Shown piece by piece: positions 22,785-54,237 of a DNA stretch of 64,000 bases. A model generated the notes under the pieces. The model had not been told where the DNA came from. It was given only the letters and a program-made list of their open reading frames with translations, and did no database searches. This DNA is from Cokeromyces recurvatus (lineage: Eukaryota; Mucoromycota; Mucoromycetes; Mucorales; Mucoraceae): assembly GCF_025118155.1 (NCBI RefSeq), contig NW_026251399.1, positions 372,001 through 436,000 on the forward strand. The letters are read 5' to 3'. The number at the start of each line of letters is the position of its first letter. Within the stretch, counting starts at the first letter, position 1. Position numbers and translations under genes: made by a program.

Positions 22785-25700
22785 CTAATAGTTAAGTGTC
22801 TCTTCAATACAAACGTTTATGAAATCTTTTTTATACATCATGTTAACCCCAAAATGTCTACTAAGTTGTTCTCTGACTTGCTTTTTAGTCACTGTTGTTA
22901 AATCTGCTGTAGCAGTTATATACTGTACTGCTCGACGTATTTCTTCGTCTGTTGGATGAAAGCTACTATTATTATCCATCATCATAGTGTTTGAAATTAT
23001 AGGACTATATCCCTGCTGATGAAGGGCTATATCATCACCATGCACGCTACCTTCACCACTATAGACTGAAGTTGAGGAAAGCATATGCATATGCTGTGGT
23101 GGTCCCAAGTTTAACATTGGATTTGAATTTAACATAACGGATGATGCTGGTCCTGATAAATTTTGATGAGAATATCTAAAGCTTAAATTATCACCGTTAT
23201 ATAATTGATTATTACCACCAATAAAGCTTGCAGACGATGTCATTGGAAGATGACTCATACTTGCAGGATAACTGAGAGCAGGAGGAGGAGGAGGAGGAGT
23301 GAGAAAATTACTATTTACGGAAGTATAGGAGCCTAAAGTTGGAACACCAGCAGCTGTGCGATGCGTTGTTGAAGCTGTAATTGCTGTACCTTTGGTCTCG
23401 ACTGATCCTGTCTCCCAAATTTCATTCTCGTGCTCATTCCATTTTTTCAAGGGAATTGACTTTGGATCAAATTTACCTTCCTCCACTGTTAACACTTTCT
23501 TTTGTCCATCATCTCCTAATACAACTCGTGTATTTCCCCAAGAGAAATCATCAAAGTGCCAAAATGCGTAAATGGGTATAAAAAATGAAAATATTGGAAT
23601 AGCCAAGATATAAACAATCATCCAGCCTATATGCTCCCACTAGTATGTATAATAGTAAGTAATTGTACAACGTAACTTTCTTTCTTTCTTTTTTTTTTTT
23701 TCCTTCTTACCTTTCTACGAACAATAAAAATAATGGCTTGTAAACCGTAAACACCACATAAAGTAATGATAGAAATAAATGGAACTTGATCTGCATTTGT
23801 AATTAATCTATATATAAGGAATCCTAAATAGCAAACCACAGCAGGCATAACAAGTGTACTAAGAAGGTCAAGTATGACGACGAATCGCATAGAGAAACAG
23901 CAGAAACCACAAAGTTGAGGTAAAAAAACTAATTCACCTAAATTATGAATAGTTGAATTGATCCAACGACGTCTTTGAGAGAGTAATACACTCCATCGAT
24001 CGGGTGCATTCGTTAAACACCCAGCATCTGCTGTAAATTTTGTTTTATAAGTAGGAAAATGCTTCAGAATTAAAGTAGTTAAATATCGGTCTTCACCAAG
24101 ATGAAGCAAGTTTTTTTGATGTAAGGTATTAACCCTATTCTCTGCATAATCATCAATAACCTGATTACTAACTAGAAGTGGTTGGTTCTTCACTCCAGGT
24201 GAACGAATACGGTACATGCAAAAGCAGCCAGGTAAACAAGTGACAGATCCAAACAAGGATTCAAACGCTTTTGATAAGAAATGCGAAATATAATATTCAT
24301 AGACCTGAATCATAGTGACCCAACTATCCTTTTCATTTGCAAGTCGTGTTTCGCCACATAGACCTACTACCTTCGAATCATGTACAAAACAGGATACCAT
24401 ACGGTTAAGAGAATCGGGTAACACTTCAGTATCAGCATCTACCATAAGTATAAACTCATAGAAACCAGGATTGACGCCAATCACATTTTTAATCTGATGA
24501 TATATTTCTAGTTCCATAGGCGTCATGGGAGCTTCAAAATGAACTTTATTTAAAAATCTCATCAATACCATTTGTGAGTCGCGCTTCCCTCTGTTTCCAG
24601 GTTTTACTCGCTCGTTTGGAGCGCCTACTTTGACCACGACAACATATGGAACAACATGTCCAGAACATTCATATAAACCCGAGTATATCTTGGCTTGATT
24701 ATGTTGCTTGATGCTTTCACCAAGTGATAAAAATGATAAAGGCTCAGGATCTACGTTGGGATCAACTCCAAGGATATCAAGTACAATACGAGGCGTAGGC
24801 CTATCATTACCGCTACCAATAATCATGCCATCACATACAAGGAAAAGTAGCTTGCGTTTATCATCATAGCGTAAAACAGCAATAGAATCAATTGTTTTAC
24901 GAAGGGATTCTTCACTTTCAGTATAGCATGGAACTTGGCATACAATAAATTTATCATAATCTTCTGGTTCGCGAAATGATCCCAACTGTAACGCAGCTAA
25001 GAATTTAAAAAGAATAACGGCACATAAAAACCCTATACATTTATATATATATATATATATATATAGTTAAAAAAAATAAATAAGTATCCATTGTAATTCA
25101 AAATATTACCTGTTACAATTAATAAAAAGTATTCAGAGAATAAACATTGAAGTGATCTTCTTGTATCTACTTTTCCAACAAAGAATAGGTTACGTAAACA
25201 AACCAATTGCCTCATTCTTAATTCTGGAGATATAGGTAGCGCATCAAAATGCTTTGAAATATCAGTTCCAGCTAATTGACGAAATAATTGAACAATACTG
25301 TTTTCCATAAAGTTCAAGTCCAAATTTTCAGGTGGTGCTATACCTACTGGTGCACGTGGAGTACGACCTCCTAATAGATAATAAGTCATATCATATACGT
25401 CACCATGAAGTACAGCCCAACTACGATGTGTACTGATATCTCCCACATTTACGACATTTGTAGCTTGACGAATAATATCGGAGGGCTCATAGCCCATAAA
25501 ACCTATTCTGTAATTCCTACGCAGAAAGACCATTTGCTCAAAGTACCAATCAGGTCGGTAATCATCAGTAAAAAATCTAAAATCGTGATATGCAGCATTC
25601 TTGTCTGTCAGGTTATATTGAAAATCAAGCACGAGTTCTTCAGGGATCCTACCCGTTACGCCATCACAAAGAGAAGAGACCTGAACAGGGAAAAGGTTTG

Positions 25701-28700
25701 TCGCATCCTTACCAGCATAATCATAAATAGCATTGTCAGGTATTACTTCAGAGGCCCAGTGGTGAGGTGCAAACTTGGTTAAATCAAAGACCTCGCCACG
25801 AATAGTGACAAGAGCACTCTTTTTGGTTGACCGAGATTGAAGTTCAGATAGAGAATAAACATCTTGATGAGGACAGATTAAGGGACCGAAAAAGATAATG
25901 AAAACGACCATAACAGAGGATAAGAAGAAAATAAGCATACAAAGAACTACTTTTTCTCTCCATGCCAAGCGAACATCACGTCGTTTCATACCACCACAAT
26001 AATTTAAGAAAGGTGAGGGAGCCCACCAGGTTAAAAGCCATACAAATATAATCCATTTACATCTAATATTCGACATAGGTTCATTGGCCTCATCTCCTAT
26101 ATCTTTCGATTTCTCACCTTTAAAGTTGGGTCCATTCAAACCTGCAGTTTGATAATAATCAGACGAAAATTTGTCTGGCGACATTAACATAGTTTGTCTA
26201 TTTTCATTCCCGGCGCCCGAAAATACATTTGAGCCATTCAGATCGTATATAGCAGATTCATTCGTATAGTCGTCCTCAGATATTGCAGAGGAAATAAGAT
26301 CATCATTATAAGAACAAAGGTCAAAAGACTTTTGTCCATGTATGCCAGAATCCATTAAAGAATTTTTTACTTTTTTTGTTTCTGATTTTTCTAAGCTTCT
26401 CAAATCATCTTCTAGAATTCGAAATGCATGATTCGATAAAAATACCTGGATACATAAGTTTTGAATTGTTAAAGTGATATTCTTCATGCAGAAACCCTCC
26501 TCCCCCCTTTTTTTTTACCTTTGTTTTTCCAATAGTCATAATATCGTCACCCCAGTTCATAGATTGAGCTACATATATACATTTATCTCGTAACCCTAAA
26601 CTAGAATCTACTATGGTATTCACTGTATTAGGAATGGAAGCATAATATCTGTTCCAAAACTCTTCAAATGTAAAGACAGCAATGTAATAGCCTTTTTTTA
26701 TATGTCTGATTAATTCAGAAAACTTAAAATGTCTTTGCTGAACAGCTATTTTTTTAATATCACACGACCTAGGGAGGGATAAATCATTAGGACGAATGCA
26801 TAACACAGACCACAAGAGTGAAGAAGAAAGTGCTTTTGATAAGTCATTAATACCAGTTACTAAAAGATCAGCAACACTTGAAACATCTGATTGCAATGAC
26901 GTTGATAGTATTTGACTTACATCGATTGACTTTCGATAACGAGCTATAGACAAATTTGAAGAAGGCCCTACGGTGGGTGAACGCAGAGGACGAATACCTT
27001 GCTGCTGAGAAAAGACCCTATTTTGAGTGCTATCATCCTGACCTAAAATTTTTGAATTAAATAAACAGGATATAAGGCTATTTGTAGTAGGTGGATTATA
27101 TGCATTCCCCGCGAACAAAGTAATGAAGTCGTTACTAAGATAGTCTTGATTACGCTCAGTAAAATATTGAGGATCATAAGTTGCTGAACCCCAAAAGTGT
27201 TGAATTGTAAATAACTTGGAATTATTATCAGCTTTTTTAAAACTCAGGATTTGATCTTTTATAGCACTCTTATTAGCTCTTGCATAATTATCCATTAAGG
27301 TTTCATCATCAGTATAGCGTTGCTGCTGCTGCTGCCCGGAGGCTTGTGTATTCATAATGGACCACAGACCTTTAGATGGATGCATAAAAAGATCAACGAT
27401 GGCTGTGCTTGCAGGTGTGTTTTCAATGAGGTTTGAAGTCATTCCTTGCTCTGCATATTCTTGTCGATCATGTTCAAAAATATGCGCATACATCAATTGG
27501 TGGACTGTCTCTTGAATAAAATGAAAAGCAAGCTGATCAAATTCACTCCCATTTTGTTTCGAGTAAACCCAACCAGGTATATCAAGCAAACCAATTAATC
27601 TATGGCTGTTTTTAGGTGCTAGTCGATTGTTGATCTGCTCTACTAGCCATGTGAACAACAAAGAATATAAAGATTGTGCAAGATCATCCCTGTGTTTACT
27701 GGATTGTTTTGCATCTAAAAATAGAGTTGTGATATCTCTCTTTATTAGCTTACTTTTAAATGTCAACGTGCTTAACAGTGAATTAGGGTCAACACCAAGT
27801 AGATCAGCAGTTATTGTTAAAGAGTCAATATTTTTAACTGTAGCAGCATCTTGAGCATTTTGAGAATCTTGTATAAAATGAATATTGCCTAAATGTAAAA
27901 TAGCTGCTAGGACTTGGAATATTTGACTTACTCTATATTTTTGAGGTAAGATTGATTTTAATGCATTTCGTAGCTCAATATCACTTGAAAGATCATCCAG
28001 TGATGATGCTTTTGAAGTATTTGTTCTAGAAAGATACTGAAAGGTTGACCAGTCAGATAAACGTAGTACACTTTTCTCTTCAGAAGTTGCTGCTGATAAT
28101 AAATTGTAAAACACATGAAAGCTACGTTCGTTTTGCCCAGCCTCTGTAACTCTTGATTTCTCTAAAGCATAAGGTAAAAATCTAGCACCTATCAGTCTGC
28201 CTCTTTCGGAAAAATGAATTTCTGAAAAAAGCGCACATCGTGAAGCATTGTCATGTTGATTTGTTTTAGCATGGCTAAATGCATGAATAATTGTTTGAGC
28301 ATGTACTATATTTGACTGTGTACGGGTCGTTTTTCGATGTGTACTAAGTGAAATTAAATAATCTATTGACTGCTTGAATTGTTCAGATTTTCCACTTCCA
28401 CTTTCACCACTATTATACAATGAGGAGGTTATAAAAAAATGATTTAATAGAAAAAAAAATGATATTACCTAAATAATATATACTGATTCATATTAGTTCT
28501 TCTCATGATTAAATAAGCGTGGTTTATGAGTTGATATAAATGAGGTTCTCTCCATTGGTTTGTTTTTGCACTTGATGTATCCTTATATTCTGTAATATAA
28601 TTTGCTTTATCATTGGCTTGTTTATCTTTATTGTTTGTATCGAACGAGTTTAATACAATTAAAACTGATGGACCTATATTTGTATAGATAAAACCATTAA

Positions 28701-39196: not shown

Positions 39197-42100
39197 TTAC
39201 AAAAAATAAGAGGAAGAAGTAGAAGAAGTAGATAAATAGTCTTTAGTAAAGCCTTTGCATAACTTTCTAATTGCTCTTTCATACATTAAAGGAGAATGGT
39301 CCATGAACATAGTTCGAGTAAAGACAATTTCTGAAAATCTGGCTTCTACATCTTCACATCGACAAAGAATAATTTTGTGTTGTTCTTTAACATGAGGAAC
39401 AGTTTCTATCCAATAAACTGTATTTGGTGGATACATTTTTTCTGATGTCATGTCTGCACGCATTGTTTTAATCACGGCCCAAAACCATTGGTCATCTTCG
39501 TTAAACTCATCTTTATTTTTATTTTTTTCTGGTGTTTTTTTTTGGAATCGTCCAATGACACGAGAAATGATTTCTTCAGCTACATCACCTTCTGCATGTA
39601 AACTAGTCGCGATGTTTTTAAAGTCTTTTAAGAGCCCTAAGCTTAAACTACTAACGATATCATATCCATGTACAACACTTGTAACGAGTCCTGCACAATA
39701 ATTACTTAGTTCGAGCGACATTACACCGGGTGGACCATACGCATAACAGTGGATAGGTCGACCTGGAGGTAAACCAGATTGTTTAGATGTTACGAAAGAA
39801 AGAGAATGTTGTGGTAGTAGCTGGTTATTATTAATAAGTGACCATCTTTCTTCATCATCCCTTGGTGTAATTTGTTGGCTCCATAAGACACACAATAGAC
39901 TAGCTACACCACCACCTAAAGAATGACCGCATAAGACTAAACTATAATCTGGATAGCTAAATAATCCCTGACGCACCTTTTGATATACTTTCCCCTTTTC
40001 TTTAGCTAATAATTGTGCAGCATCCAGCATACCACTATGAGCCTTAAAGACCCTTGAGGGATCCGTAGGTAAAGTAAATTCCGTATAATGAAAACTTAAA
40101 TCAGTAAGGATATCACTTAGGCCCAATGTACCACGACACGTGAGTACAATTGCTTTAGCTGTGTGGTCTACGGTTACATAATGAACAAGAGCATGAATAG
40201 ATGGATTATGTAAGTGAAGTGGAGACCTATCTGTATAACTAGATAGTAGAATATCTTCAACTGAATTCCCTGTATGGTGAGCAAATGCATGATGATTTGG
40301 ATGATGGTGACGAGAATGAGGTAAGACAGTTGGAATATCGCCAATTCCTAAGATCCGCATAAAAGATTCACCATAGGCTGCACTTGCATATTTCATAAAA
40401 TGCGCAATATTATTTATAACTTGGCTTTGTAGAGAATGACTTCTAGAATGGTTGATAGTATTGTCTTTATCGTTATCATGAGTGACTGGTATATTGTTGT
40501 TATTGCGGGTCATTGCTAAACTTGCAGTGGTTGAAGTAGTAGTAGAGGTAGTGGTAGTGGTAGAAGTAGTGGTAGTGGTAGAAGTAGCCTTTGATCCGAC
40601 ATTATGGCTACAAAAACTTGAAATTGAGCTTGCCCGTTTTTGTTTATATCTTTTCATACTATTGTCTTTATTTGTAATTAGACATGAGGAAAGAGAAGAG
40701 GCAAGCCGTTGTCTGATAGTTACAGGTGAAACTAATTTTGAAAGATCTGGTGTTGAATAGTTATATTTTTTTGTCCTTTGTAATAGGTATGAACCTGCCT
40801 GTTGATCTTGATTATCTAATAGTAATGTAGATATGCAAAATTTGGTCTTATTACTTAAATTATTGTTATAATCAGGTGAAGAAAATCTACGTCTATGATT
40901 ATACTTTTGCTGTTGAGTATTGTTATTCTTTACCTGACAAAAGAAATCAGCATCTTCTTGCCTTTCTACTTTACGTTTTCGCCTTTTATCAGACAAATTA
41001 GATAGAATAAATTTAGGCTCATTTTTATGATTGTTATCAAGCAGTGCTAAATAAGATTCATTCTCTTCTTCACTCATTCGAAGCACAATTTTTTTTGTAT
41101 TATCCTTGTTATTATTATTATTGTAAATTGAATCAAGGAGAGGTAAGATGGTTGTTGTTTTAGTCGTTAAACAAGCAGTTTTAGTAGTGATTTTATATGT
41201 ATTATTTAATGGTGTCACATAATCATCATTCTTTTGATCAACATGTTTTCTATTGTTTAATAAGTTATTGAGTTCCTGTATAATTAAATCTTGTTGCTGA
41301 GAATCTAATGCTGTATTATAATTTTTCATTTCAGTGCCTTGGAGGTTGTTACTATCATTACTGTTTCTTTTGAATTGAATAAGACCATGTGCCTTAGCTT
41401 CTTCACCTTCTTCTTTTTCATCAGTCACTATCCCTTCCCATAAGACTGTCATGGGAATTTGTTTCATCATACGTTTATGTGTTACATTTTGTAGTACCGC
41501 AAAAGCAGTTAAGGCTTTGGTTAAACCAGCTAAAATGGCAAGGTTGCCTGCTTTTGCCAACCCAAATTCTGGGTCTTGAATAAGCTCACGATGAACTAAG
41601 GTTATAATAGATGCGATCGCACGAGAAGTATCATTTGAACCGAAAATACCATCAATGAGTCTTACTGATTCTTCGGCTGCCTTTAATAACAAAACAAAAA
41701 AAAAAAAAGAAAAAAAAAGGATTATTTAGAACGAAAAAAATAAAATAAAAATGAAAAACAGGCTTCATTTACTTTAAGGCTTGATTGAATAGTTTTTGAA
41801 GTAAACTGTAAACCCGACAATGCAAATAACTCAGTTAAAGAGAAGGTGTAATTGACAATATAGAGCCCAAAGTCTGTATATTTCTGAAGTGCTTTCACAA
41901 ATAAACTTTCGTCATTACTATTAAACCTATTTTAAGTTTACATGTAGATCAATAAAAGTTATAGTGATTTATTCATTTGTAAATATACCTTTGTTCTTGA
42001 TCATCAAGTGAATTTGTGGCAATGATACAAGCATCATGATTGTTATTATTATTATTCAAGCTGGAATGTAAATGCTTTGCTGTAGAAATCGCATTAATTA

Positions 42101-42406: not shown

Positions 42407-43529
42407 ATAAGGATGAAAAAAATAAAAAATAAAAAAGGGCAAAAGAGTTGAGGGGTGAGAAAAAAAGAGAAAATATATATTTAGATAGATGTATAATTTA
42501 TTATTTATTTTGTCACATACATAATGAACCTATAAGTCGATTTTATTTTGTGTGTTTATTTATACACACTTCAGATGATGTAGCAGAAGCAGAAGCAGCA
42601 GGCAACGGCAGCAACAACAGCATAACCCCAAATAAACTACTATGTACTGTAATATATTATTGAATACATAAAATCATATGAATTGGTAACAAGGTCTTAG
42701 TAGTCATTTATTCTTTTTCTATATATACATATTTATATATGATTACATATTTTATATAGAATAAGAACTTTTAATATTATTTAAAGCTATTGTTTAATTT
42801 TTTTTATTTATTTATAGTAGGAAAGTTCTAATTATGTAGGTTAGTTTTTAGTTTTAATTAAAAATTGATGGGGTAAAAAGCAATAACAATTTTTGGGTAA
42901 CCCTTTATAATCATTAAAATACTTCACGCATGCATTCATCACAGTCCTCTTTTTATATAGTTGTACCTAAATCGACATGTACGACAATGTATACAATTAT
43001 GCATCTATCTTGCTAGGTTTATTATTATACAAGGACAATATGTATTTATTAAAAAAAAGAAGAAGAAGAAATAAATGTTTATTTACAAGTGTAAACTTTT
43101 TATTTTTTCTGCATACAAAAGATATTAGAATAATTATACTGTTCTTGGAAGAAGGAAAAAAAAAAGGCCCTCGTGACTTTTCTATTTGGCAGTACAAACC
43201 CTTTTGCATTAGGTGAATATATTTTGTTGTGCATACAAAATATACGTATACATCTATATACAAATATGTATATACGGTGGAACTAAAAACGCCACGTTAA
43301 ATCTGAGTACAATATATATTTATGTGTGTGTATGTATCAGGAAAGTTACTATTTATCATTTATACGGTTATATATAATGAAATCGTTATAATCTCAATAA
43401 TTCTTAACTATGGAAGGGTTTATAGTGAATAACAAATACATACAGTTATACATTTTCTAATGATTTAAAAGTAGTTCAACATATAAAAAATATATTCACA
43501 TATTTTTTAATATATCATATATGGTTGTA
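42348..43529. other. Lipase promoter and gene-free flank of the transposon
   Basis: About 1.2 kb, AT-rich. A36 at 42369-42404 abuts the lipase start. A GCAGCA-type repeat at 42585-42620 is the most GC-rich piece. No coding frame is supported. The right end is the TA dinucleotide at 43528-43529, the left target-site copy of the element. Confidence 0.6.
42369..42404. repeat. Poly(A) tract, 36 bases, at the lipase promoter
   Basis: Uninterrupted A run (T in the gene's sense) ending 22 bp from the start codon of the minus-strand lipase gene. Confidence 0.95.
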
Positions 43530-43592
43530 CAATGAAGCTGGAAAATATTGGTTAATTTAGAAATTTAAATGGTGATTGTAAAAAAATAATTT
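43530..43592 (+). repeat. Left terminal inverted repeat (63 bp)
   Basis: Matches the reverse complement of 47653-47715 at 55 of 63 positions without gaps; the longest shared blocks are AAATATTGGTTAATTTAGAA and the following ATTT, ATGGTGAT and AAAATAATTT. Preceded by TA. Confidence 0.9.
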
Positions 43593-44558
43593 GGCACTTG
43601 TTAAAAAAATTGTTTCCGAAAAGCTGAAAAATGATTGGCCGTTTTAAAAGTTGTTTTGAGCACTTGAAATTTATTGTTCAAGAATCAGCGATTCTTAAGA
43701 ATAAAGAACCTTTAGCCATCAGATTATTCCTCTTTGCGAAAACCCAAAAATTTTTAATTAAATTCAGTTTTGGAAATTATAGAGTTAAATACGTGAGTCT
43801 ATAGCCTCTGACCTTGCGCCCTTGATTAAACTCATCGTTTTAAAAATTATTATTATAGACTGATACGCATAGTTAATTTGGACAAGTATGGAGAGAGGTA
43901 TGTATAAGAAAATATATCAACAGTTTTATTAAAGCCCTGATTAATGGTGTTTAGAGTCTGGTCTGTCTTCACAATCCAATTATATCTTTGAGATGTATAT
44001 ATACGTGTAAACAAAAAATTTCGCACATGTTCTTATAAACTATGTTTATCGATAATGGGCTTATATAACTGGAACATGCAGATCAAGGGTTTTATTATAG
44101 AACCAGCTTTATTCAATTGTTAATAAGATATCCATAAGAGTTTATGTTAAAGTTTATTTACTTGGCTTCGGTTAATTAATAGATAGTTATTGATAAAGAT
44201 AAAGAAAAACATAATAGTAATGATAAATAACTCATAAATTATGTGTTTATGTATGTGTCGGGATATGTCAAAAAAAAAGTAGTTTGTATATGACTTTATA
44301 AATCAGTGTTTACCTCTCTCTCTTCTCTTTCTTATTCCTTTGCATTCGTTCCTCGATTATACAATAAACTAGCAAAGTAATTCTCTTTTTTAATACTTCA
44401 TCCAAAAATCCTGAAAGCGAACGCTTTGCAAATGCGAAAAAAAAAATGATACCGCAATAACACCCTCTCAAAAAGAATCCGCTAAAATAAAGAGTAAAAT
44501 ATATAGAGATTATCTACCTTTCTAATACTGACCACAAGATTGGCATGCAGACGCCACG

Positions 44559-45354
44559 ATGACCGTTCCAAAAACAGCGCCTGGTCCTTCTAACATATAT
44601 TACGAAACTATCCAAGAAAACTCTGATGATGATTTTCAACCCACTGTTGTTATCAGGAAGAGAAAAAGTATGTACTTTTATGATAGCCTTTTAATGCACT
44701 CTAAAACTAACATAAAAACCACATAAGGCAGAGAAAGTACTCAAAATGATGAGTCTCAAAGAAAAAAGGCCAAAGGCAAAGAAAGAGCTAGAGATGCAAT
44801 CCTACCTGACGTCCAATATAATGTAGGAAGTTCAAGCAACATCGATCCTTCTACAACAAATGAAGTATTTGATACAAGCGTAGTGACTTTGGACGATTAC
44901 AATCTTGATTCTGACGATGATTTTTGCGAAACTATCGTAAGACAAACTACATCTGGTGAATCCAGCAAGTTTGCTCCCCGTAAGGAATCCAAAGGTTCTT
45001 CAACTTCTACTCTTGCAATATATACTGCTGTTGTTGCTAAATCCGCTGCTTCTACTGTTACATCTGCTGCTGCTTCTATCAAAGCTACTACTACGGGTAC
45101 TACCAAGACATCCCCCGTTTCTGAAGCAAGTTCGGTTGCTGCTACAGAAATAAATATCGAAGTAGCCGACAAACGCGTCATAGCGGTAAAGACGACTGTA
45201 AAGAACATTTGGAAGCCGGCATATATCGAGCCATTACAAGATCTAGTAAATATTACTAATACAATTGTCACTCACACTTTTGCCTTTATCAAGTATATCT
45301 TTGTAAGTGAGTTGATGAAAAATATCGAGTTTGACTTGAAAAGCTATGTTAACA

Positions 45355-45393
<39 letters not shown>

Positions 45394-47537
45394 TTGAGGT
45401 ATTCTTGAGTCTTACCCTGAGACGAGTGTATGATGGTACCAAATCTCGAAAAACACGCCTCAAAGAAACAACGAAATTATATAGACAATTGATTGCCAAA
45501 CACAAAGGCTTATATTGCGAAAATGCCGGCTATATTCCACCTAAACTAGAATGCCCAGCAAATTGCTTTGTACGAATGTACGAAAATTGAAATCGCTTAT
45601 TACAATAATATCAAAGCCCATTTTGGAGATAGGCTCCGCGAAATGCTAAACAAACTTTGCAAAAAAAAAAAAAAAGAAAGAAAAATCAAATGCTCTTCAA
45701 GAAAGAATGACGACAGAAGAATATAGCACAAAATCCATACAAGCAGCTGTCCGTAAAGAGGTCTTTACTCCCTGCACCCAAGTAAAACTTACTGTAGCGA
45801 AAAAAAAAGAAATGCCCAATTCTGACATCTTGAATGAAAAGTCGATATCAGAAATAGAAACTCTATTCTTCATGTATCCTACAGACTACAGATTCCATAA
45901 AGATTCAATATTCTATGATGTACTGGCTTGACCAGTAAATCACTTCAAGGCTTTTTTATAGACTTGCACAACTTGCTGAATCAGAGAAGTTGAAAGAATT
46001 CATTTGTTTTCCTATACGAACCATGTTTATTCCCCAATATATGACAGTGGATAGTAAGATCGTTAACTTCCATATTCTCAAAAACAAGAAGCCTGCGAAG
46101 GATAAAATTAAAACCTGAGCTCAAGTAACTGATTTGGAAAAAAAAGGCTTTTAAAGAACAAAGATTAAATAAGTCTCTTCATTTTGAGGGAACTTTGGAG
46201 ATTGATGGAATTGGTGTTTCTATTCTGAAGCAAAATACTGCTACAACTAGGAAGAAAAAGCTAACAGAAGATAGCCCTGAAACTTTAAAAAAGGAAGATG
46301 GACGAAGAAGTGACAATGATGCCCAGTATATTAAAACATTAACACAAGCAGAGCTGGCAAGCATGAATGGAAGATGCGTTTTGATTGATCTCGGAAGACG
46401 TGATATTTTATACTGTATGAAAGAAACCAGTGTGGTTAAGCACGAAGAAGTTCTTGTTTTTACAAAAAATGACAGATCAAAAAGATCAAGACACTTTAGA
46501 ACTTTACGAAAGTCAATTAAACCATCCATGGTTGAATCCGCTGAAGCTCTTCTTTCCAAAACCCCGTCATCCACTGTAGATGTAGTCAAATTTGTAGATT
46601 ACATTAAGACAAGATCATCGGTGGAAAACGTACTAAACCGATACTATGGAAATGAAACAAAATCATCCAAAGATCTTTACTTCCCCAGCTCCTTGTTTGG
46701 CTTTCATGTGGGTGAGAAAAGCAACTTGTATTTTGGTCATTTACTCGTCTTAAATATTCGAGGCATCGTTTCTTCTCCTGACACTCGAACGCAATCTCAA
46801 CTGTACCATACGCACTTGCATCTAATGTTGCAGCAACGACATATCTCAGAGAGATTGGACGATGGAGTCAAAAATACGGTGCTTGAACTTGCAGAGAAGA
46901 TGAATCGCGGATGAAGAAGTCAACCTGAAACAACATATCAGTAAATTGTTGGAGAAACTTCAAGTTTTGCCATTCCGAAAGCTGAAGTTTTCATCCAAAA
47001 TTTTCTATGATCAAAATAACCAGATGTTAGTGAAGAGATTGAAAAAGAATTTTGGTCATGATGCGATTCTTGTTATTGGTAATTGGTCCGCTTCAAACAC
47101 AAAATATCATGAGCCAACCAGGAACAAAGGTCTCATTCGAATGCTGAAGAAAAACGGCTTCCAAGTATTCAAGATTGACGAATATAAGACTTCTTCATGC
47201 TGCCCAACCTGTGAAAGTTCATTAAAAAAGTTTAAAACAGTCGCCAACCCTCACCCCCATAAGAGAGAGAGCCAAAATGCCAACTGTAAAATGTCATGGC
47301 TTATTAAGGTAAAGTAACAGTATGAATTGTATCAATACAACAGAGAATGATAATAATTACTGAACTATTAGATGTAAAAATCATAACTGCCTGTTGGCCA
47401 ACCTTGAACAAGTCAAAGAAATTCCACGAAAGCTGTGGAATCGAGATATGGCAGCTGTTTTAAACTTTCGAAAGATCTTGATCAGCTTAAGAGAGACAGG
47501 TAAACGCCCTGATGTTTTTAGCAGAAAACCAGAATGA
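44559..47537 (+). pseudogene. Fanzor (eukaryotic TnpB-like RNA-guided nuclease), inactivated
   Basis: Start ATG at 44559; intron 1 is 44668-44727. A Ser/Thr/Ala-rich N-terminal region follows. Conserved Fanzor segments can then be read across shifting frames: AYYNNIKAHFGDRLREML (45601-45654), FICFPIRTMFIPQYMTVD, FEGTLEIDGIGVSIL, RuvC-I VLIDLGRRD (Asp codon 46387-46389), FRKLKFSSKIF, ILVIGNW, RuvC-II KIDEYKTS (Glu codon 47180-47182), zinc-ribbon CCPTC and CHGLLRC, CKNHNC, and RuvC-III LWNRDMAAVLNFRKI (Asp codon 47445-47447). Intron 2 (47309-47371) splits the zinc ribbon. Breaks: frame change near 45580, A-rich run near 45662-45690, stop at 45929, frame change near 45955, stop at 46116, frame change near 46140, stop at 46912, frame change near 47285. 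A T34 run (45359-45392) sits in the coding region. Fanzors cut DNA guided by an RNA made from the element end. All three catalytic acids remain; the usual Pro in RuvC-I (DPG) is Leu. Confidence 0.9.
45359..45392. repeat. Poly(T) tract, 34 bases, inside the Fanzor pseudogene
   Basis: Uninterrupted T run in the coding frame; would encode about 11 consecutive Phe. It is not expected in a Fanzor and is either expansion after loss of selection or part of an unrecognised intron. Confidence 0.9.
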
Positions 47538-47715
47538 AGGAAAAAATAGCAAATCTCTGCCAAATTTATCGCTTTGGTTATTTAATGCAGGTATGTTGCT
47601 CTGAGCTTACTTAAAAATATTGGTGAGTCAATCATTTTTTGGTTTTTCGCCTAAATTATTTTGTTATTATCACCATACAAATTTCTAAATTAACCAATAT
47701 TTCCCAGCTTCGCTG
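47538..47715 (+). ncRNA. Candidate remnant of the Fanzor guide-RNA (omega RNA) region
   Basis: In TnpB and Fanzor systems the guide scaffold is transcribed from the 3' end of the nuclease gene through the element's right end, with the guide read from flanking DNA. This 178-bp segment runs from the stop codon to the right boundary. It contains a perfect 10-bp inverted repeat, AAATATTGGT at 47615-47624 and ACCAATATTT at 47693-47702, that could form a stem with a 68-nt loop. The second arm lies in the terminal inverted repeat. This is position and structure only. Confidence 0.25.
47653..47715 (-). repeat. Right terminal inverted repeat (63 bp)
   Basis: Inverted copy of the left repeat at 43530-43592 (87% identical), followed by TA at 47716-47717. 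Confidence 0.9.
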
Positions 47716-50403
47716 TAGAACACAAGGACTTCATTTATAACATGTAATTAGTGATGTCACTAAAAAGAAAAATATTTTTATTTATTAAACATGTACTGAT
47801 TCTTCCTTTGTTCCCTTTTTTTCTTTTCAATTTTTTATACAAGATATCGCATTATTGTATTAAGTATAATTAGGTCTATTGAATAGGCTTTTAATCATAA
47901 GCCTTTATTATTATCAATTCTCTCAAGACAATATATTTTCTCAGCATATATTATTATTATAAATTATTGAAAAAAAAAATAGATTCTTGAATAATTTAAC
48001 TGGTTTAGTAAGATATTGGGGGGAAATTTATATTGATAGTTAGTAGTATACTAAATACAATTTGAAATTGATTTGTTTTTTTTTTCGATAAAATTAATTT
48101 CATTATAATATTAACGAGAATTATATGTAAAAAGAACTTTTTTTATCATATTAAGAAGTTAAAAAAAAATACGGTTAAAATGGTGTCCTCTTATCTCTAA
48201 GGTCTACATCATCATTTAGAAAAAGATTTACTTTTGACAAGAAGAGGAGATAAGATGAATGTATAAAAATAGAGTTATTTTTTTATCTCGGAGTATCATT
48301 CGCTCTGTATTTCCAGTATATTCTATCGTTTAGATATTGCCTCTTTCCTTTCAGTGGTGATAGTATACAAGTTCGGAATATTCGATGTTCAATATCATGA
48401 TTCTCAAATCATATCCCTTCCTATACTTGATGAATAATGAAGTTCGACTGGCTATAATTTATCTACAAATAGAACTCATCTAATACGATGTAATACAATT
48501 TATTAGTATCTAGTAGTTGATCTATTTATATATTATTTACATCTTATTTAAAGATACTACTAAACATTTATAACATTATATGATGTACATAGCCAAATAA
48601 AGTGATTCTATAGGCAAAAAAAAAAAAAAGTTATTAGTTAATAGCTGATAAATTTATTAGCAGCATGAAGTGGTAATAATACTATATAGAATACACACAT
48701 TTTATATAATTCTTTTTTTTTTTTTTTTTTTTTTTTTTTCAATTCCCTGATTTTATTGATAGTCGATCAGTAAAACCATGAGTTTGGTTGTGCCGACTTA
48801 ATTTTTTTTTTTTTTTTTTTTTTTTTTACTTACATTTTTATTTGCTTTTGTAAATAATAATTTATACTACTCTCTCTCTCTTTTTTTTTTTCCTCCAACA
48901 ATCTTTTGTTATTGTATAAAATAGATAAACTATATTATGCTTTGAATTAATAATTCAGGTTCAATATATTATTTGAAGTTATTTTAGATAGAAATAATCG
49001 GATCTTTATATACACAAATGTAATATTGCTATTATACAGATCAATGTAACTCAGGTGAACACAATAATAAATGGAGTTGCAATTGCATGTGATCGTTTTT
49101 TTAAAAAAAAACATCTTGAAAGAATAGAGTTGAAAAAAAAATATTAAACAAAATATTTACTATGTGTCAAAATGCTTATTTTATTGAATTCTATTTGTTC
49201 TAAAATGTTATTAACTGATTATTTAAACTTAAAGTTAGCAATAAGAAAATAAAAGATCTGATAATTTATTTTATTTCTATTGGCCATTCAGAAGAAAACA
49301 TTTTACACAAAAAAAAAAAAAAATCGTCAAATATTAGATATAAAATAATCTTTCAAAGCTACTAATAAATCATACTTCTGTAGTTTACTTCATAAAAACC
49401 AGTTATTTAAAGATAAAGTAAGATTTATCTAAAATATAATATATATAATCAAGTCAAACAACCTTATGACAATAAAAGTTTATTTCAAAAAATATAGATA
49501 TATACAAGAATTTTCGTGTTATTCCCGTCCTATTCCAAATGCAGTTTAACTAAAATAAATAAAAAAAAAAACTAGGGTAGGGTATACATGTGGAAGAGAA
49601 GGAGAAGTACGGAAAAAGGATAAACATAATTTTTTTTTGCACATGTCCTCTTCATTTCATTTGTGGCCCCTTACCCATATAGTATAAAGACCTTTATCAG
49701 ATCTTTTTTGAAGATCAATATTAAATTTGATATGTGCTTTCTCTGTCTTTTTTTTTTCTGAATATGAATAAACCTATTTTAAAGTATATTCCGATATTTT
49801 TAAATAGTTGTCTGTGTTATTATACAGTGAGGTAATCTTTTTAATTTGTTTATCGCATTTATTCAGAAACATATTATAACTAGGTTATAATTATTCATTT
49901 TTTATTCAATGAATATATAAATACAGATGAAAAATAAATATCTAAAAAGAGCTTACAACACTAAATAATAAAGACTTCTAATCTGTAATGAGAATTGATG
50001 TTTTTTTTTCTTCGGTATATGATTTTTATCATGTGCATACATCAATAATAAGTTTATTAACTACGGATTATTTTCTTAGATACGATTATACAAAAAAAAA
50101 AAAAAAAAGATCTGATAATGAATTTTTCAGTAACTGTTGTAAATTTTACAAAGGAAAAACAAAAGTAGTATATAATCCTTTCCTGTTATATATAATTACT
50201 TATCTGATCTAAAATATCTAATAATTACGTATTGCTGTCTATAGTAGTTTAGAAGTTAAGTAAAACAAAATCTTTTTTTTCCCTAGCGGAGAAATCAATC
50301 TGATAAGATGAAATTCCAAACCCTTTTTTGTCTAATTGTAACCCTTGATTTGTCCGAAGATAAAAACATATAAATAAGCTGTATGTCTACCCTGTTTAAC
50401 AAT

Positions 50404-50440
<37 letters not shown>

Positions 50441-50496
50441 CAACAAATAATTTTTATTTATCCTTCTTTTTTTTAAAAAAAATAAATAAACTAAAT
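47716..50496. other. Gene-poor AT-rich intergenic region
   Basis: About 2.8 kb to the right of the element. It contains A/T homopolymers (T runs near 48713-48738 and 48803-48827) and ends in T35 (50406-50440) ahead of the PPR gene start. No coding frame, tRNA or further transposon end was recognised. Confidence 0.6.
50406..50440. repeat. Poly(T) tract, 35 bases, upstream of the PPR gene
   Basis: Uninterrupted T run ending 56 bp before the chosen ATG at 50497. Confidence 0.95.
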
Positions 50497-53400
50497 ATGA
50501 CTAATAATCACACATTATTAAATAAACGTATTGTTACTAATACCTCAAAACCTAATAATATGAATATGAAGCAAAATAATAATGAAAACAAATATAAAGA
50601 ACCTTCAAAATTGATAATAAATCAATATCTTCACCGAAATAAAAAGACTCTAATATCTACAACGAACCCTTATCTTTCTAACTGTCAGGATCATGATAAT
50701 GGTCGCAATAATAAGATGAGTTCTATGACTATATCAGATAAAGAGAAAAAAGAAGACAAGCTTTTACTTACTCCACCAAGTTCACCAGATACAGCCTCTT
50801 GTATTCCTGAATCTTACCATTTTCACTATAAAAAAAAAGTGAACAGCACATTCGAATACAACAATCGTATTTTACAAGCTAAAAGGAACGGCCATATTCG
50901 TATTGTTATGAATGAGTTCTCATCGATGAAGAAAAATAAAGTTAAACTTACTCAGCACACATATAATTTAGTTTTAGAGGCTCATGCCATTCTACGTCGA
51001 GAAGGAACGCCTTTAACGACTATGCTAAAAGGTAAATTAAATTACTCTCTATATATAAACCACATGCATTATTACTTTGATTTAACACTCTTAATATATA
51101 TAATAGTTTATAATGAAATGATTCGTGCAAACATTCAACCAAATACTTATACCTATATTATCATGATTCGTACATTATGTAAACGAGATGTGGAAGTTCA
51201 AAAGACTGTGGCCATGCTAAAACGTCAATCAATGCGAATCGGCGAAGAAAATGAAGACATTCGCATATTGGAATCCGAACGTAATCTAGAAAGGGCGCTT
51301 GCTATCTTTCGTTACGCGATTGCGGATGGTATCTCTATCAATACATTTGAAATTGAAACCTTTAACCAATTGCTTCGTGTCTTGTCTCATTATGGTAATA
51401 CTGTAGACGCCACTTTTGTCTACCATCAGTTACAACAGCCTACCGTTAAAGCGAAACCTAATTCAGCAACCTATGCAGCCCTTATCAATCTCTTTGGTCG
51501 TGCAGGCGACATTGATACATCTCTTTATTATTATAACGTTTACACTCAAGTGAAAGACTCATTAGGTTCCCATGATTCTTCTTATATCTATAATGCTCTT
51601 GTTGATTGTCATTTGAAATGTGGACTACTAGAGGGCGCACTTCATATTATTGAGCATGAAATGATTGAAAAGAATATTAAAATAACATGCATCCCTTATA
51701 ACTCAATTATCCGTCATTACTGTACTCATAATCAAATGGAAGAAGCGGAGGCCCTTATTGATCGCTTAATTCAAGAACATCAAAGGGATCCCGCAAAGTA
51801 TCCTTACCCTGATGCTAGTAGCTATGGGCCTTTACTTGCAGTGTATTGCCAAGTCAATCAATGGGAGGAAGCAACACGTGTTTATGATGCCCTTATAAAA
51901 ACGGATATATCCAAGGCATATGGTAACCTGGCTAATTATGCTCTTCTCTGTCTCTCCCATCACGATCGACAAAGGGCACTCTCTATTATCTCTGATATGA
52001 GAGGCGCTCATTTAGAGCCAGATCCTATTCTTGCCTGTCGTATCATTACCGCCTTTTCTCAAGCAGAAGAAATAAATGAAGCAATTGAAGCTCTTTCCAT
52101 TTTACAACAGGCTATGTCTCCTCGTGCACTCACGAAGGGCTTTCATCATCTCATGGAGGCTTCGCTTTCTATTGTACTTCATTGTGCTTGCGTACGTCAA
52201 GTATTACAAGTTCTACATACTATCTTGCCTACTTTAATTAAAAACAATCAAGATATCCTTAACAATCACATCTCTCACTCTTTTCCTACTCCATATGACA
52301 TCATGTGCAAGACTTTACTAGACTCTTACTTTGACATGGACTCCCCTAGGGATATACAGTATACATTCACAACAGCCGATTTTCAGTTAATCTTTGATGC
52401 TGCATTTATAGTTTGTGTCCATAACGAAATGAACCCGTCTACTACTTTAAGTCATGTTCTCTTACAACTTTTACAAGACATGCATACCTTGGGTCTGAAT
52501 GTTTCTAATGAGCTATTTAATCATGTACTTGATCAAATACGAGCTCGTGGTGATTTAGAAGCTGAAGCGAAATGGATCTCTGCCTTTTCTAATATGGAGG
52601 TATCATCTTCAACATCAGCCATGGATAAGAGTGTTGCTGTTGCTGTTGTTGTTGAAAGACGCTATTCGTTATCTACTAAAACAAGTGAGCAAGATGATGA
52701 TGATGATGATGATGATGAGGAGGAGGATGATATTGATGATGACAATGATATTGATATTATTCTCAAAATAGATAATAAAGAAAACGATTATTGTAGTAAC
52801 ATAACAACAACAACAATGGCTTTGTCTTCTACTGATAATACTGCTGAAGTCGTCTCTCAAAGAATTCTTAAGGCCGTTATGAATCGGCATTATGCAGAAG
52901 CTATCCATATCTTTGAAGATTGTATTATCTGCCAAGGTTTAATACCTACACCAGAAATCATGCGTGATGTGATCACACTCGCTGGCAAACAGGGTCACCC
53001 TCAGACCTCTCTCACCCTGTACCACAACTCGATATATGCCTTTAAGGATATCCGAGATACGCAAACGAGGGAGAAGGCGATTTACATGGCAACAAACAGT
53101 CTTTTGATTGTCTATGCACAAATGGGTGATATGGAGAAAGCTAAAGTCTACTATGACCGTATCAAGGTGATGGGGTACCATCCCGATAGTGATGGATATG
53201 CGAGTCTCTTACTAGGCAGTGCGAAAAGTGCTACAGATGAAGCCACAGATGCTCTTGCCATCTATGATGAAGCTAAACGTCATCATGTAAAGCCCACCAC
53301 CTTCTTTTATAATGTCATTATTTCCAAATTGGCCAAGGCTCGAAGGTTAGATACAGCTCTTACCCTCTTTGAGGAAATGCGACACCTTAAGGTCCCTGCT

Positions 53401-54237
53401 AATTCCATCACTTATGGTGCCATCATCTCTGCTAGTGTCCGTTCAGGATCCAGGAAGCAATCCCATCGTCTCTTTGAAGAAATGCTCTCCTCACCTTCCT
53501 ATCAACCTCGTGTGGGACCGTTCAATAATATGATGCAACTTTATGTACGTCAACATCCAAATCGAGAGCGAGTCTTAGAGTACTTTGCAGAGATGCGTCG
53601 CCGTCATATCAAACCTTCCCCTCATAGCTATAAGTTATTGATGGAGGCTTATACCCATATCCCCCCTTATGACATGCTCACGGCCCACAAGTTATTAAGT
53701 GATATGAGACGACGTGACCATCTTCGTCCTCAGGCTACACATTATGCAACCCTCATTTACTCCTATGGTATCCTTCAACGTGATGTACAGAGCGCAGAAC
53801 GTGTCTATGCTGAAATGATAAAAGCAGGTATTCATCCTGATGAGGGTGTCTACCAAGCTATGATCGATACGTTTATTAGTAATAATGATTTAGAAAAGGC
53901 AGAGCACCTCTATTATGAAGAGATGAAAAAGGATACAAGACTTCAAAAGAGGGGTAGTGGTGGTGGTGGATCACCTTATATTGAAAACCTCTTTATTCGT
54001 GGCTATGGTGAAAGAGGCCAGCTCGAGAAGGTAGAGGCTCTCTTTGAGGCAATGTCAGATGATAAAACACAACAGCATTTATTTGTCATTCGAGAACCAA
54101 GCACTTATGAAGCTATGATTCGTGCTTATGTTGAAAATAATAAAGTAGATAAAGCAAAAGAAATTTTTGATCTCATGGTGAAGCGTGATTTCCCTCCTAA
54201 AGTCATTAGTGCCGTTGCAGAATTAGTACCGGAATAA
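50497..54237 (+). CDS. Pentatricopeptide repeat (PPR) protein, probably mitochondrial
   Basis: Two exons, 50497-51031 and 51107-54237, give 1221 aa. The 75-bp intron between them is a multiple of three and has no stop, so it can be mistaken for coding sequence; removing it restores a PPR helix (LKVYNEMIRANIQPNTYTYI). An ATG at 50383 is in frame but would translate the T35 tract, so I chose 50497. The N-terminus is Asn/Lys-rich. At least ten PPR-like units follow, for example TYAALINLFGRAGDIDTSLY, FYNVIISKLAKARRLDTALT, TYGAIISASVRSGSRKQSHR, VYQAMIDTFISNNDLEKAEH and TYEAMIRAYVENNKVDKAKE. An Asp/Glu-rich run (about residues 740-765) interrupts the array. PPR proteins bind single-stranded RNA, mainly in mitochondria; the target is unknown and no clear presequence is visible. 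Confidence 0.92.
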   Translation: MTNNHTLLNKRIVTNTSKPNNMNMKQNNNENKYKEPSKLIINQYLHRNKKTLISTTNPYLSNCQDHDNGRNNKMSSMTISDKEKKEDKLLLTPPSSPDTASCIPESYHFHYKKKVNSTFEYNNRILQAKRNGHIRIVMNEFSSMKKNKVKLTQHTYNLVLEAHAILRREGTPLTTMLKGKLNYSLYINHMHYYFDLTLLIYIIVYNEMIRANIQPNTYTYIIMIRTLCKRDVEVQKTVAMLKRQSMRIGEENEDIRILESERNLERALAIFRYAIADGISINTFEIETFNQLLRVLSHYGNTVDATFVYHQLQQPTVKAKPNSATYAALINLFGRAGDIDTSLYYYNVYTQVKDSLGSHDSSYIYNALVDCHLKCGLLEGALHIIEHEMIEKNIKITCIPYNSIIRHYCTHNQMEEAEALIDRLIQEHQRDPAKYPYPDASSYGPLLAVYCQVNQWEEATRVYDALIKTDISKAYGNLANYALLCLSHHDRQRALSIISDMRGAHLEPDPILACRIITAFSQAEEINEAIEALSILQQAMSPRALTKGFHHLMEASLSIVLHCACVRQVLQVLHTILPTLIKNNQDILNNHISHSFPTPYDIMCKTLLDSYFDMDSPRDIQYTFTTADFQLIFDAAFIVCVHNEMNPSTTLSHVLLQLLQDMHTLGLNVSNELFNHVLDQIRARGDLEAEAKWISAFSNMEVSSSTSAMDKSVAVAVVVERRYSLSTKTSEQDDDDDDDDEEEDDIDDDNDIDIILKIDNKENDYCSNITTTTMALSSTDNTAEVVSQRILKAVMNRHYAEAIHIFEDCIICQGLIPTPEIMRDVITLAGKQGHPQTSLTLYHNSIYAFKDIRDTQTREKAIYMATNSLLIVYAQMGDMEKAKVYYDRIKVMGYHPDSDGYASLLLGSAKSATDEATDALAIYDEAKRHHVKPTTFFYNVIISKLAKARRLDTALTLFEEMRHLKVPANSITYGAIISASVRSGSRKQSHRLFEEMLSSPSYQPRVGPFNNMMQLYVRQHPNRERVLEYFAEMRRRHIKPSPHSYKLLMEAYTHIPPYDMLTAHKLLSDMRRRDHLRPQATHYATLIYSYGILQRDVQSAERVYAEMIKAGIHPDEGVYQAMIDTFISNNDLEKAEHLYYEEMKKDTRLQKRGSGGGGSPYIENLFIRGYGERGQLEKVEALFEAMSDDKTQQHLFVIREPSTYEAMIRAYVENNKVDKAKEIFDLMVKRDFPPKVISAVAELVPE

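Follow-up and report, generated by a model that had tools for sequence, protein, structure and literature searches.

A broken Fanzor1 gene of the Parasitella type in a probable dead mariner-type transposon copy of Cokeromyces recurvatus

In a 64,000-nt stretch of the Cokeromyces recurvatus genome (hereafter the window), positions 43530–47715 very probably hold a dead, non-autonomous Tc1/mariner-type transposon copy that bears a gene for Fanzor1 of the Parasitella parasitica type (PpFz1) and belongs to a nine-copy family in almost neutral decay. Fanzors are eukaryotic relatives of the CRISPR nucleases. Sequence comparison confirmed the gene, at 44559–47537 on the + strand, as a broken Fanzor1 of this type; an ATG at 44559 and a TGA at 47535–47537 agree with the sequence. 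The initial annotation had drawn a Fanzor relic between these limits, which fit the start and end of the gene, whereas the transposon unit is wider (43530–47715). Five pieces of the gene were searched separately against all PDB chains, and PpFz1 (PDB 9cf0) was the top match for all five, in collinear order:

44727–45587, + strand: gene piece matching 9cf0 chain residues 369–626 (E 8.6e-27)
45939–46115, + strand: gene piece matching 9cf0 chain residues 755–805 (E 8e-17)
46129–46911, + strand: gene piece matching 9cf0 chain residues 820–1069 (E 1e-69)
46904–47314, + strand: gene piece matching 9cf0 chain residues 1080–1196 (E 9.6e-48)
47364–47534, + strand: gene piece matching 9cf0 chain residues 1205–1256 (E 3.1e-13)

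The Fanzor1 of Spizellomyces punctatus (SpuFz1, 8gkh) came second for three pieces (E 1.1e-11, 7.8e-4, and 0.01), and for the remaining two the later PDB matches were unrelated (E 0.045 or worse). Just two PDB sequences, both Fanzor1, matched the RuvC piece (to E 10) and the zinc-ribbon piece (to E 1). Placement in Fanzor1 or Fanzor2, which the initial annotation had left to alignment, is therefore to Fanzor1, and the relic appears nearer to Fanzor1 than to Fanzor2/TnpB, an assignment made by PDB matches rather than from a tree. A Pfam search of seven gene pieces, including 44532–44723 and 45650–45928, found no family for these two and recognised a single family overall, the zinc-ribbon Cas12f1-like_TNB, below threshold (E 3.1e-4; 21.3 bits against a cut-off of 26.3). 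The label PF26935 is listed for relatives of the gene; a Pfam search of six such proteins returned no family for any of them. A run of 34 T at 45359–45392 enlarges the Fanzor coding part, and its length varies among copies.

The RuvC D-E-D triad is in register with the published catalytic residues of SpuFz1, D383, E541, and D606 (PMC11423790, excerpted text), a single offset of 394 converting chain residues 777, 935, and 1000 of the printed alignments to these numbers:

46387–46389, + strand: RuvC-I Asp, facing SpuFz1 D383 (chain residue 777)
47180–47182, + strand: RuvC-II Glu, facing SpuFz1 E541 (chain residue 935)
47445–47447, + strand: RuvC-III Asp, facing SpuFz1 D606 (chain residue 1000)
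47201–47212, + strand: CPTC, cysteine pair 1 of the zinc ribbon; intron 2 interrupts pair 2

All three acidic positions thus coincide with the triad, and the claim of a Fanzor relic with its three RuvC acids still readable is borne out by these residues together with the ordered PpFz1 matches. CPTC and the second cysteine pair, read across intron 2, form the C4 zinc ribbon that Pfam had recognised below threshold. The motifs quoted in the annotation lie in + strand frames of 44559–47537, except that CHGLLRC is readable only across a 63-nt GT-AG gap. Its view of several degenerate frames as one Fanzor agrees with the collinearity to PpFz1, but two of the frame changes are better read as introns than as decay:

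44668–44727, + strand: putative intron 1, GT-AG, 60 nt; the reading across it resembles PpFz1 and an open Helicostylum relative (P0007), whose C-terminal part looks mispredicted
47309–47371, + strand: putative intron 2, GT-AG, 63 nt

Because the reading across both GT-AG gaps follows PpFz1 and its relatives, two of the breaks in the gene are explained by introns, as we infer from the sequence. At the site of intron 2, frames stop and restart at the same residues in three other copies (C15:163k, C45:688k, and C26:37k). The other breaks are true damage: stops at 45929–45931 and 46116–46118, and frame changes near 45.55, 45.66, 45.80, 45.95, 46.13, 46.90, and 47.27 kb, a number of which fall within runs of A or GA. 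With these stops and frame breaks beside the introns interrupting the coding sequence, the gene is a pseudogene of the Fanzor1 family. It is very improbable that the gene works and that errors in sequencing runs of A, T, and GA only make it look broken; several breaks do fall in such runs, but others lie outside them, the eight relatives are interrupted as well, for the most part elsewhere, and the substitutions are near neutral.

Inverted repeats of 69 nt (87% alike), extended by another 34 nt (74%), stand on either side of the gene, and the element comprises the following parts:

43530–47715, + strand (taken from the Fanzor gene): the complete 4,186-bp transposon; same family present elsewhere in the genome
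43528–43529, no strand: left TA, putative target-site duplication
47716–47717, no strand: right TA, putative target-site duplication
43530–43637, + strand: left terminal inverted repeat (TIR), arms 43524–43592 (87%) and 43604–43637 (74%)
47629–47715, − strand: right TIR, arms 47653–47721 and 47629–47662
43681–43827, − strand: remnant of a Tc1/mariner (DDE_3) transposase, C-terminal part, with one stop inside

Among 13 copies with both ends printed, 11 had TA on both sides; of the two exceptions, the printed left end of C45a is not its true end, whereas C45b begins after CA and its right end is unrecognisable. Of 11 Fanzor or short elements, 8 have A as the base preceding the TA (the CA of C45b included), which agrees with the PpFz1 TAM, ATN, and is confounded by AT-richness and mariner preference. 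A 24-base TIR pattern, allowing up to three mismatches, occurred at 38 sites in the 28-Mb genome vs. none for the reversed pattern. The ends of the window element match those of four transposase-bearing elements (L051, L053, L054, and L061) over up to 121 nt at 75–88%. The transposases of L054 and L053 are DDE_3 (Pfam, E 5.3e-23 and 7.8e-20), and those of L051 and L061 were matched to them by search; all four are broken or truncated, and none of the transposases seen with these ends was intact. Ends, TIRs, and TA flanks together point to carriage of the Fanzor1 gene by a eukaryotic transposable element of the Tc1/mariner type.

In place of a DDE transposase of its own, the window element holds the remnant listed above (43% identity over 53 residues, E 1.4e-7, tblastn of a DDE_3 query against 13 stretches), and we therefore consider it non-autonomous. 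Six elements, of family B or of the short kind, show the remnant more plainly (E 1e-20 to 1e-12). In a mariner on C12 (975811–977689) the transposase also runs antisense, and its C-terminus lies close to the left end. The Tc1/mariner superfamily is abundant here: one of its transposases gave 192 matches in 28 Mb, among them some that repeat the same score and have long open frames. Another DDE-transposase-like piece (L058 407–538, − strand; C15, near 161.2 kb; 36% identity, E 1.7e-5) lies antisense ahead of a Fanzor that lacks the RuvC insertion described below, an arrangement also found in the mariner-type family.

Two other origins for the whole element were weighed. A MuDR-type Fanzor element would have precedents in other Mucorales (ROr-4, PBl-3, and MCi-4; PMC3627910, as excerpted), and a Fanzor copy on C26 does have inverted repeats of ∼430 nt that are 97% alike. 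We nevertheless regard this origin as quite improbable for the window element, which, compared with DDE_3 transposase elements, has TA flanks and shared TIRs where 9-bp duplications and MuDR TIRs would be expected; the C26 locus gave no convincing match to the window ends (best E 0.06, five stretches). Scarcely credible is a domesticated host Fanzor gene, later lost, around which mariner ends lie by chance. In the stretch read around one copy, on C56, no TIR was recognised, and some copies may therefore be immobile, but ends and gene are common to nine copies, and the TA flanks border different sequence in each.

The Tc1/mariner-type reading suggests a history in which a mariner element came to lack most of its transposase gene and acquired a Fanzor1 gene, its copies being mobilised in trans by the transposases of related elements. 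Against this reading stand the shortness of the remnant in the window and the broken or truncated state of the transposases seen with these ends. The remainder of the window around the element holds a class 3 lipase frame to its left (39197–41725, − strand) and, to its right, an unbroken pentatricopeptide repeat frame of 1287 codons (50374–54237, + strand). Adjacent frames at 23627–28468 (− strand) encode a myosin motor domain and a chitin synthase domain 2 and are possibly one myosin-headed chitin synthase.

The family of the window element has nine members: the window copy, those on C32, C62, C36, C1, C64, C28, and C8, and a deletion derivative at C45:725437–726789. They are ∼88–93% alike, and their tree is star-like, with tips of 0.021–0.066 and inner branches of at most 0.012. 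Differences between the window and C32 copies are spread over the three codon positions (28/625, 35/623, and 25/622), as are the variable columns of six copies (65/471, 57/469, and 71/468), and by these counts codon changes in the family appear nearly neutral. The C62 and C64 copies differ at 10, 14, and 20 sites at the three positions, and several pairs that do not involve the window copy have fewer second-position changes; weak past constraint is therefore possible. A 5-nt duplication that breaks the frame, with a substitution next to it, is common to the C28 and C8 copies even though their right flanks are different; this suggests that a dead copy moved. Dead copies thus probably still moved, which fits transposition in trans; segmental duplication is the alternative, and the copies might in part have arisen that way. 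Short elements of ∼1.4 kb on C12, C62, C2 (two), and C17 retain the right-end region together with part of the gene end; they are reminiscent of the Spizellomyces ghost loci, but have the look of family B copies shortened by deletion.

Searched against the genome, one protein piece found 35 matches and the other 31, corresponding to 27 and 24 loci with 22 in common, and hence at least 29 Fanzor-like loci, all of these counts being lower bounds. Only one of the 22 two-piece loci, on C26, has both pieces in one stop-free frame, and it is broken upstream. The ∼430-nt inverted repeats on C26 (L060 238–661 and 3065–3494, near 35.2–38.5 kb) frame a Fanzor of the kind without the RuvC insertion. The C56 copy has 653 open codons, one in-frame stop, and then 113 codons, and keeps a RuvC-III piece; the Cokeromyces recurvatus protein BX663DRAFT_484320 comes from this locus. 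No intact gene was found among the copies read (C56, C15:162k, C45:688k, C26:36k, and the family copies), the remaining Fanzor-like loci being judged by frames and stops only. The suggestion in the initial annotation that intact paralogues may exist elsewhere was thus covered in part: paralogues are many, and none of those read is intact.

PpFz1 carries a RuvC insertion (FRI) of ∼100 residues, in which a loop with P614 and P616 contacts cyclophilin (PMC11423790, excerpted text). The window copy aligns with 9cf0 through this insertion, and the PpFz1 loop sequence YPQP is VSSP there. With the prolines of the P-x-P motif taken as P614/P616 by inference from chain numbering, the motif was absent in all seven family copies that are in frame at this point; C28 is out of frame and C45a deleted. 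In a rough motif scan of 30 relatives, nine had both border motifs, eight of them with a spacing of 104–114 residues and the ninth with 166. A PQP loop occurs in proteins of Gilbertella, Helicostylum, Mucor mucedo, and Rhizopus delemar, and the loop of the Cokeromyces C56 protein is YPQN. The C15:162k, C45:688k, and C26 copies do not have the insertion. In the excerpted text of PMC11423790 the FRI is reported only for Parasitella and Rhizopus; we found it also in Cokeromyces, Gilbertella, Helicostylum, and Mucor proteins, and this wider distribution weakens the idea, raised in that source, of a role in mycoparasitism. A link between the FRI and mariner ends was considered and dropped, since the C56 copy has the insertion and no recognised ends in the stretch read.

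The right end of the element contains a further conserved feature:

47581–47634, + strand: conserved block outside the coding sequence, a candidate scaffold segment of an omega RNA; its partner arm is damaged in the window copy

Between families A and B, the left part of this block has diverged less than the end of the gene; it was unmatched in the mariner-type elements searched, in which matches begin inside the TIR. Block and TIR fold as a long hairpin whose right arm lies in the TIR. For hairpin scoring we took 80 nt from TTGCT, a stretch picked after the C1 fold was seen; 17 copies were given and two without the end motif were skipped. Eleven of the 15 copies scored had z values of −3.5 or lower, values that are not independent because the copies are related, and the other four had −1.3 (window, with part of one arm missing), −2.1 (C36), −1.6 (C12g), and −0.3 (C2g660). 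Among 104 windows along the C32 element the lowest z was −3.1. In a 16-sequence alignment of the 3′ region, no pair of the long hairpin was changed on both sides and all 500 shuffles were at least as good by each measure, so we claim no covariation. RNAalifold gave a weak structure for the same alignment (−7.95 kcal/mol, double change in 1 of 16 pairs), which differs from the long hairpin of single copies. Rfam returned no matches to E 1.

We regard the right-end block as a candidate omega RNA that folds with the terminal repeat. That it is instead a transposase-binding or other DNA signal is a serious possibility, a little short of even: the right arm of the hairpin lies within a TIR common to transposase elements, and neither the pair changes, the shuffles, nor Rfam speaks for an RNA. 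On the other side, the left part was not found in the mariner-type elements searched and is better conserved between the two families than the gene end; in Spizellomyces, omega RNA is made at this place, the right end of the element (PMC10432273, excerpted text); and for a Fanzor1 of an ascovirus, the scaffold is predicted to include the TIRs (PMC10711439, excerpted text). By analogy with characterised TnpB/Fanzor systems, the right end of a live ancestor probably gave an omega RNA with flanking DNA as guide, and this RNA would have steered Fanzor1 to cut the empty site, favouring retention or copying of the element. A bolder proposal, which we advance tentatively and think rather unlikely, is that the guide-RNA scaffold is half borrowed, a Fanzor-specific arm pairing with the mariner terminal repeat, and that the cyclophilin contact of the FRI is dispensable and was lost in this branch. 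If the scaffold were half borrowed, short elements with almost no Fanzor gene could still supply Fanzor proteins with guides, and one common repeat would tie the spread of mariners to RNA-guided cutting.

Mariner-borne Fanzor1 genes, as well as MuDR-type and other Fanzor1 elements of Mucorales, are already in print (PMC3627910, excerpted text). For Cokeromyces, we found no report of a Fanzor in the literature searched, most subscription papers lying outside its coverage; in IMG/VR, two stretches matched a pattern and neither was confirmed. One genome here contains mariner-type Fanzor families with the FRI, FRI-less Fanzors, short right-end derivatives, and related transposase elements, a co-occurrence that makes a natural test of the role of a Fanzor for its transposon. 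The window copy and its relatives show how a Fanzor gene was carried and decayed.

Among the closest known systems, PpFz1 (PDB 9cf0–9cf3) resembles the window gene in its collinear protein match, D-E-D triad, and FRI of ∼100 residues; the window gene differs in being broken, in the VSSP loop, and in RuvC-I, which reads DLG vs. DPG in PpFz1. PGv-1, PUl-1, and PUl-4 are likewise Fanzor1-carrying elements that are flanked by TA and end in mariner TIRs, whether or not a transposase is present (PMC3627910, excerpted text), but come from other organisms, whereas the window element is fungal and holds only an antisense transposase remnant. The MuDR-type elements ROr-4, PBl-3, and MCi-4 are, like the window element, Fanzor1 elements of Mucorales without their own transposase, and are distinguished by 9-bp duplications and MuDR TIRs (same source) from the TA and mariner TIRs found here. 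SPu-1 (SpuFz1) of the chytrid Spizellomyces punctatus, with the ghost loci reported there (PMC10432273, excerpted text), shares TA flanks, TIRs, many copies, and short elements that keep the right end. SpuFz1 is nevertheless distant (E 1.1e-11) and reportedly without the FRI, and its omega RNA has been sequenced, whereas the candidate in the window is known from DNA sequence alone. Set beside these systems, the window copy is new and its kind already known: a good fossil, ordinary in kind.
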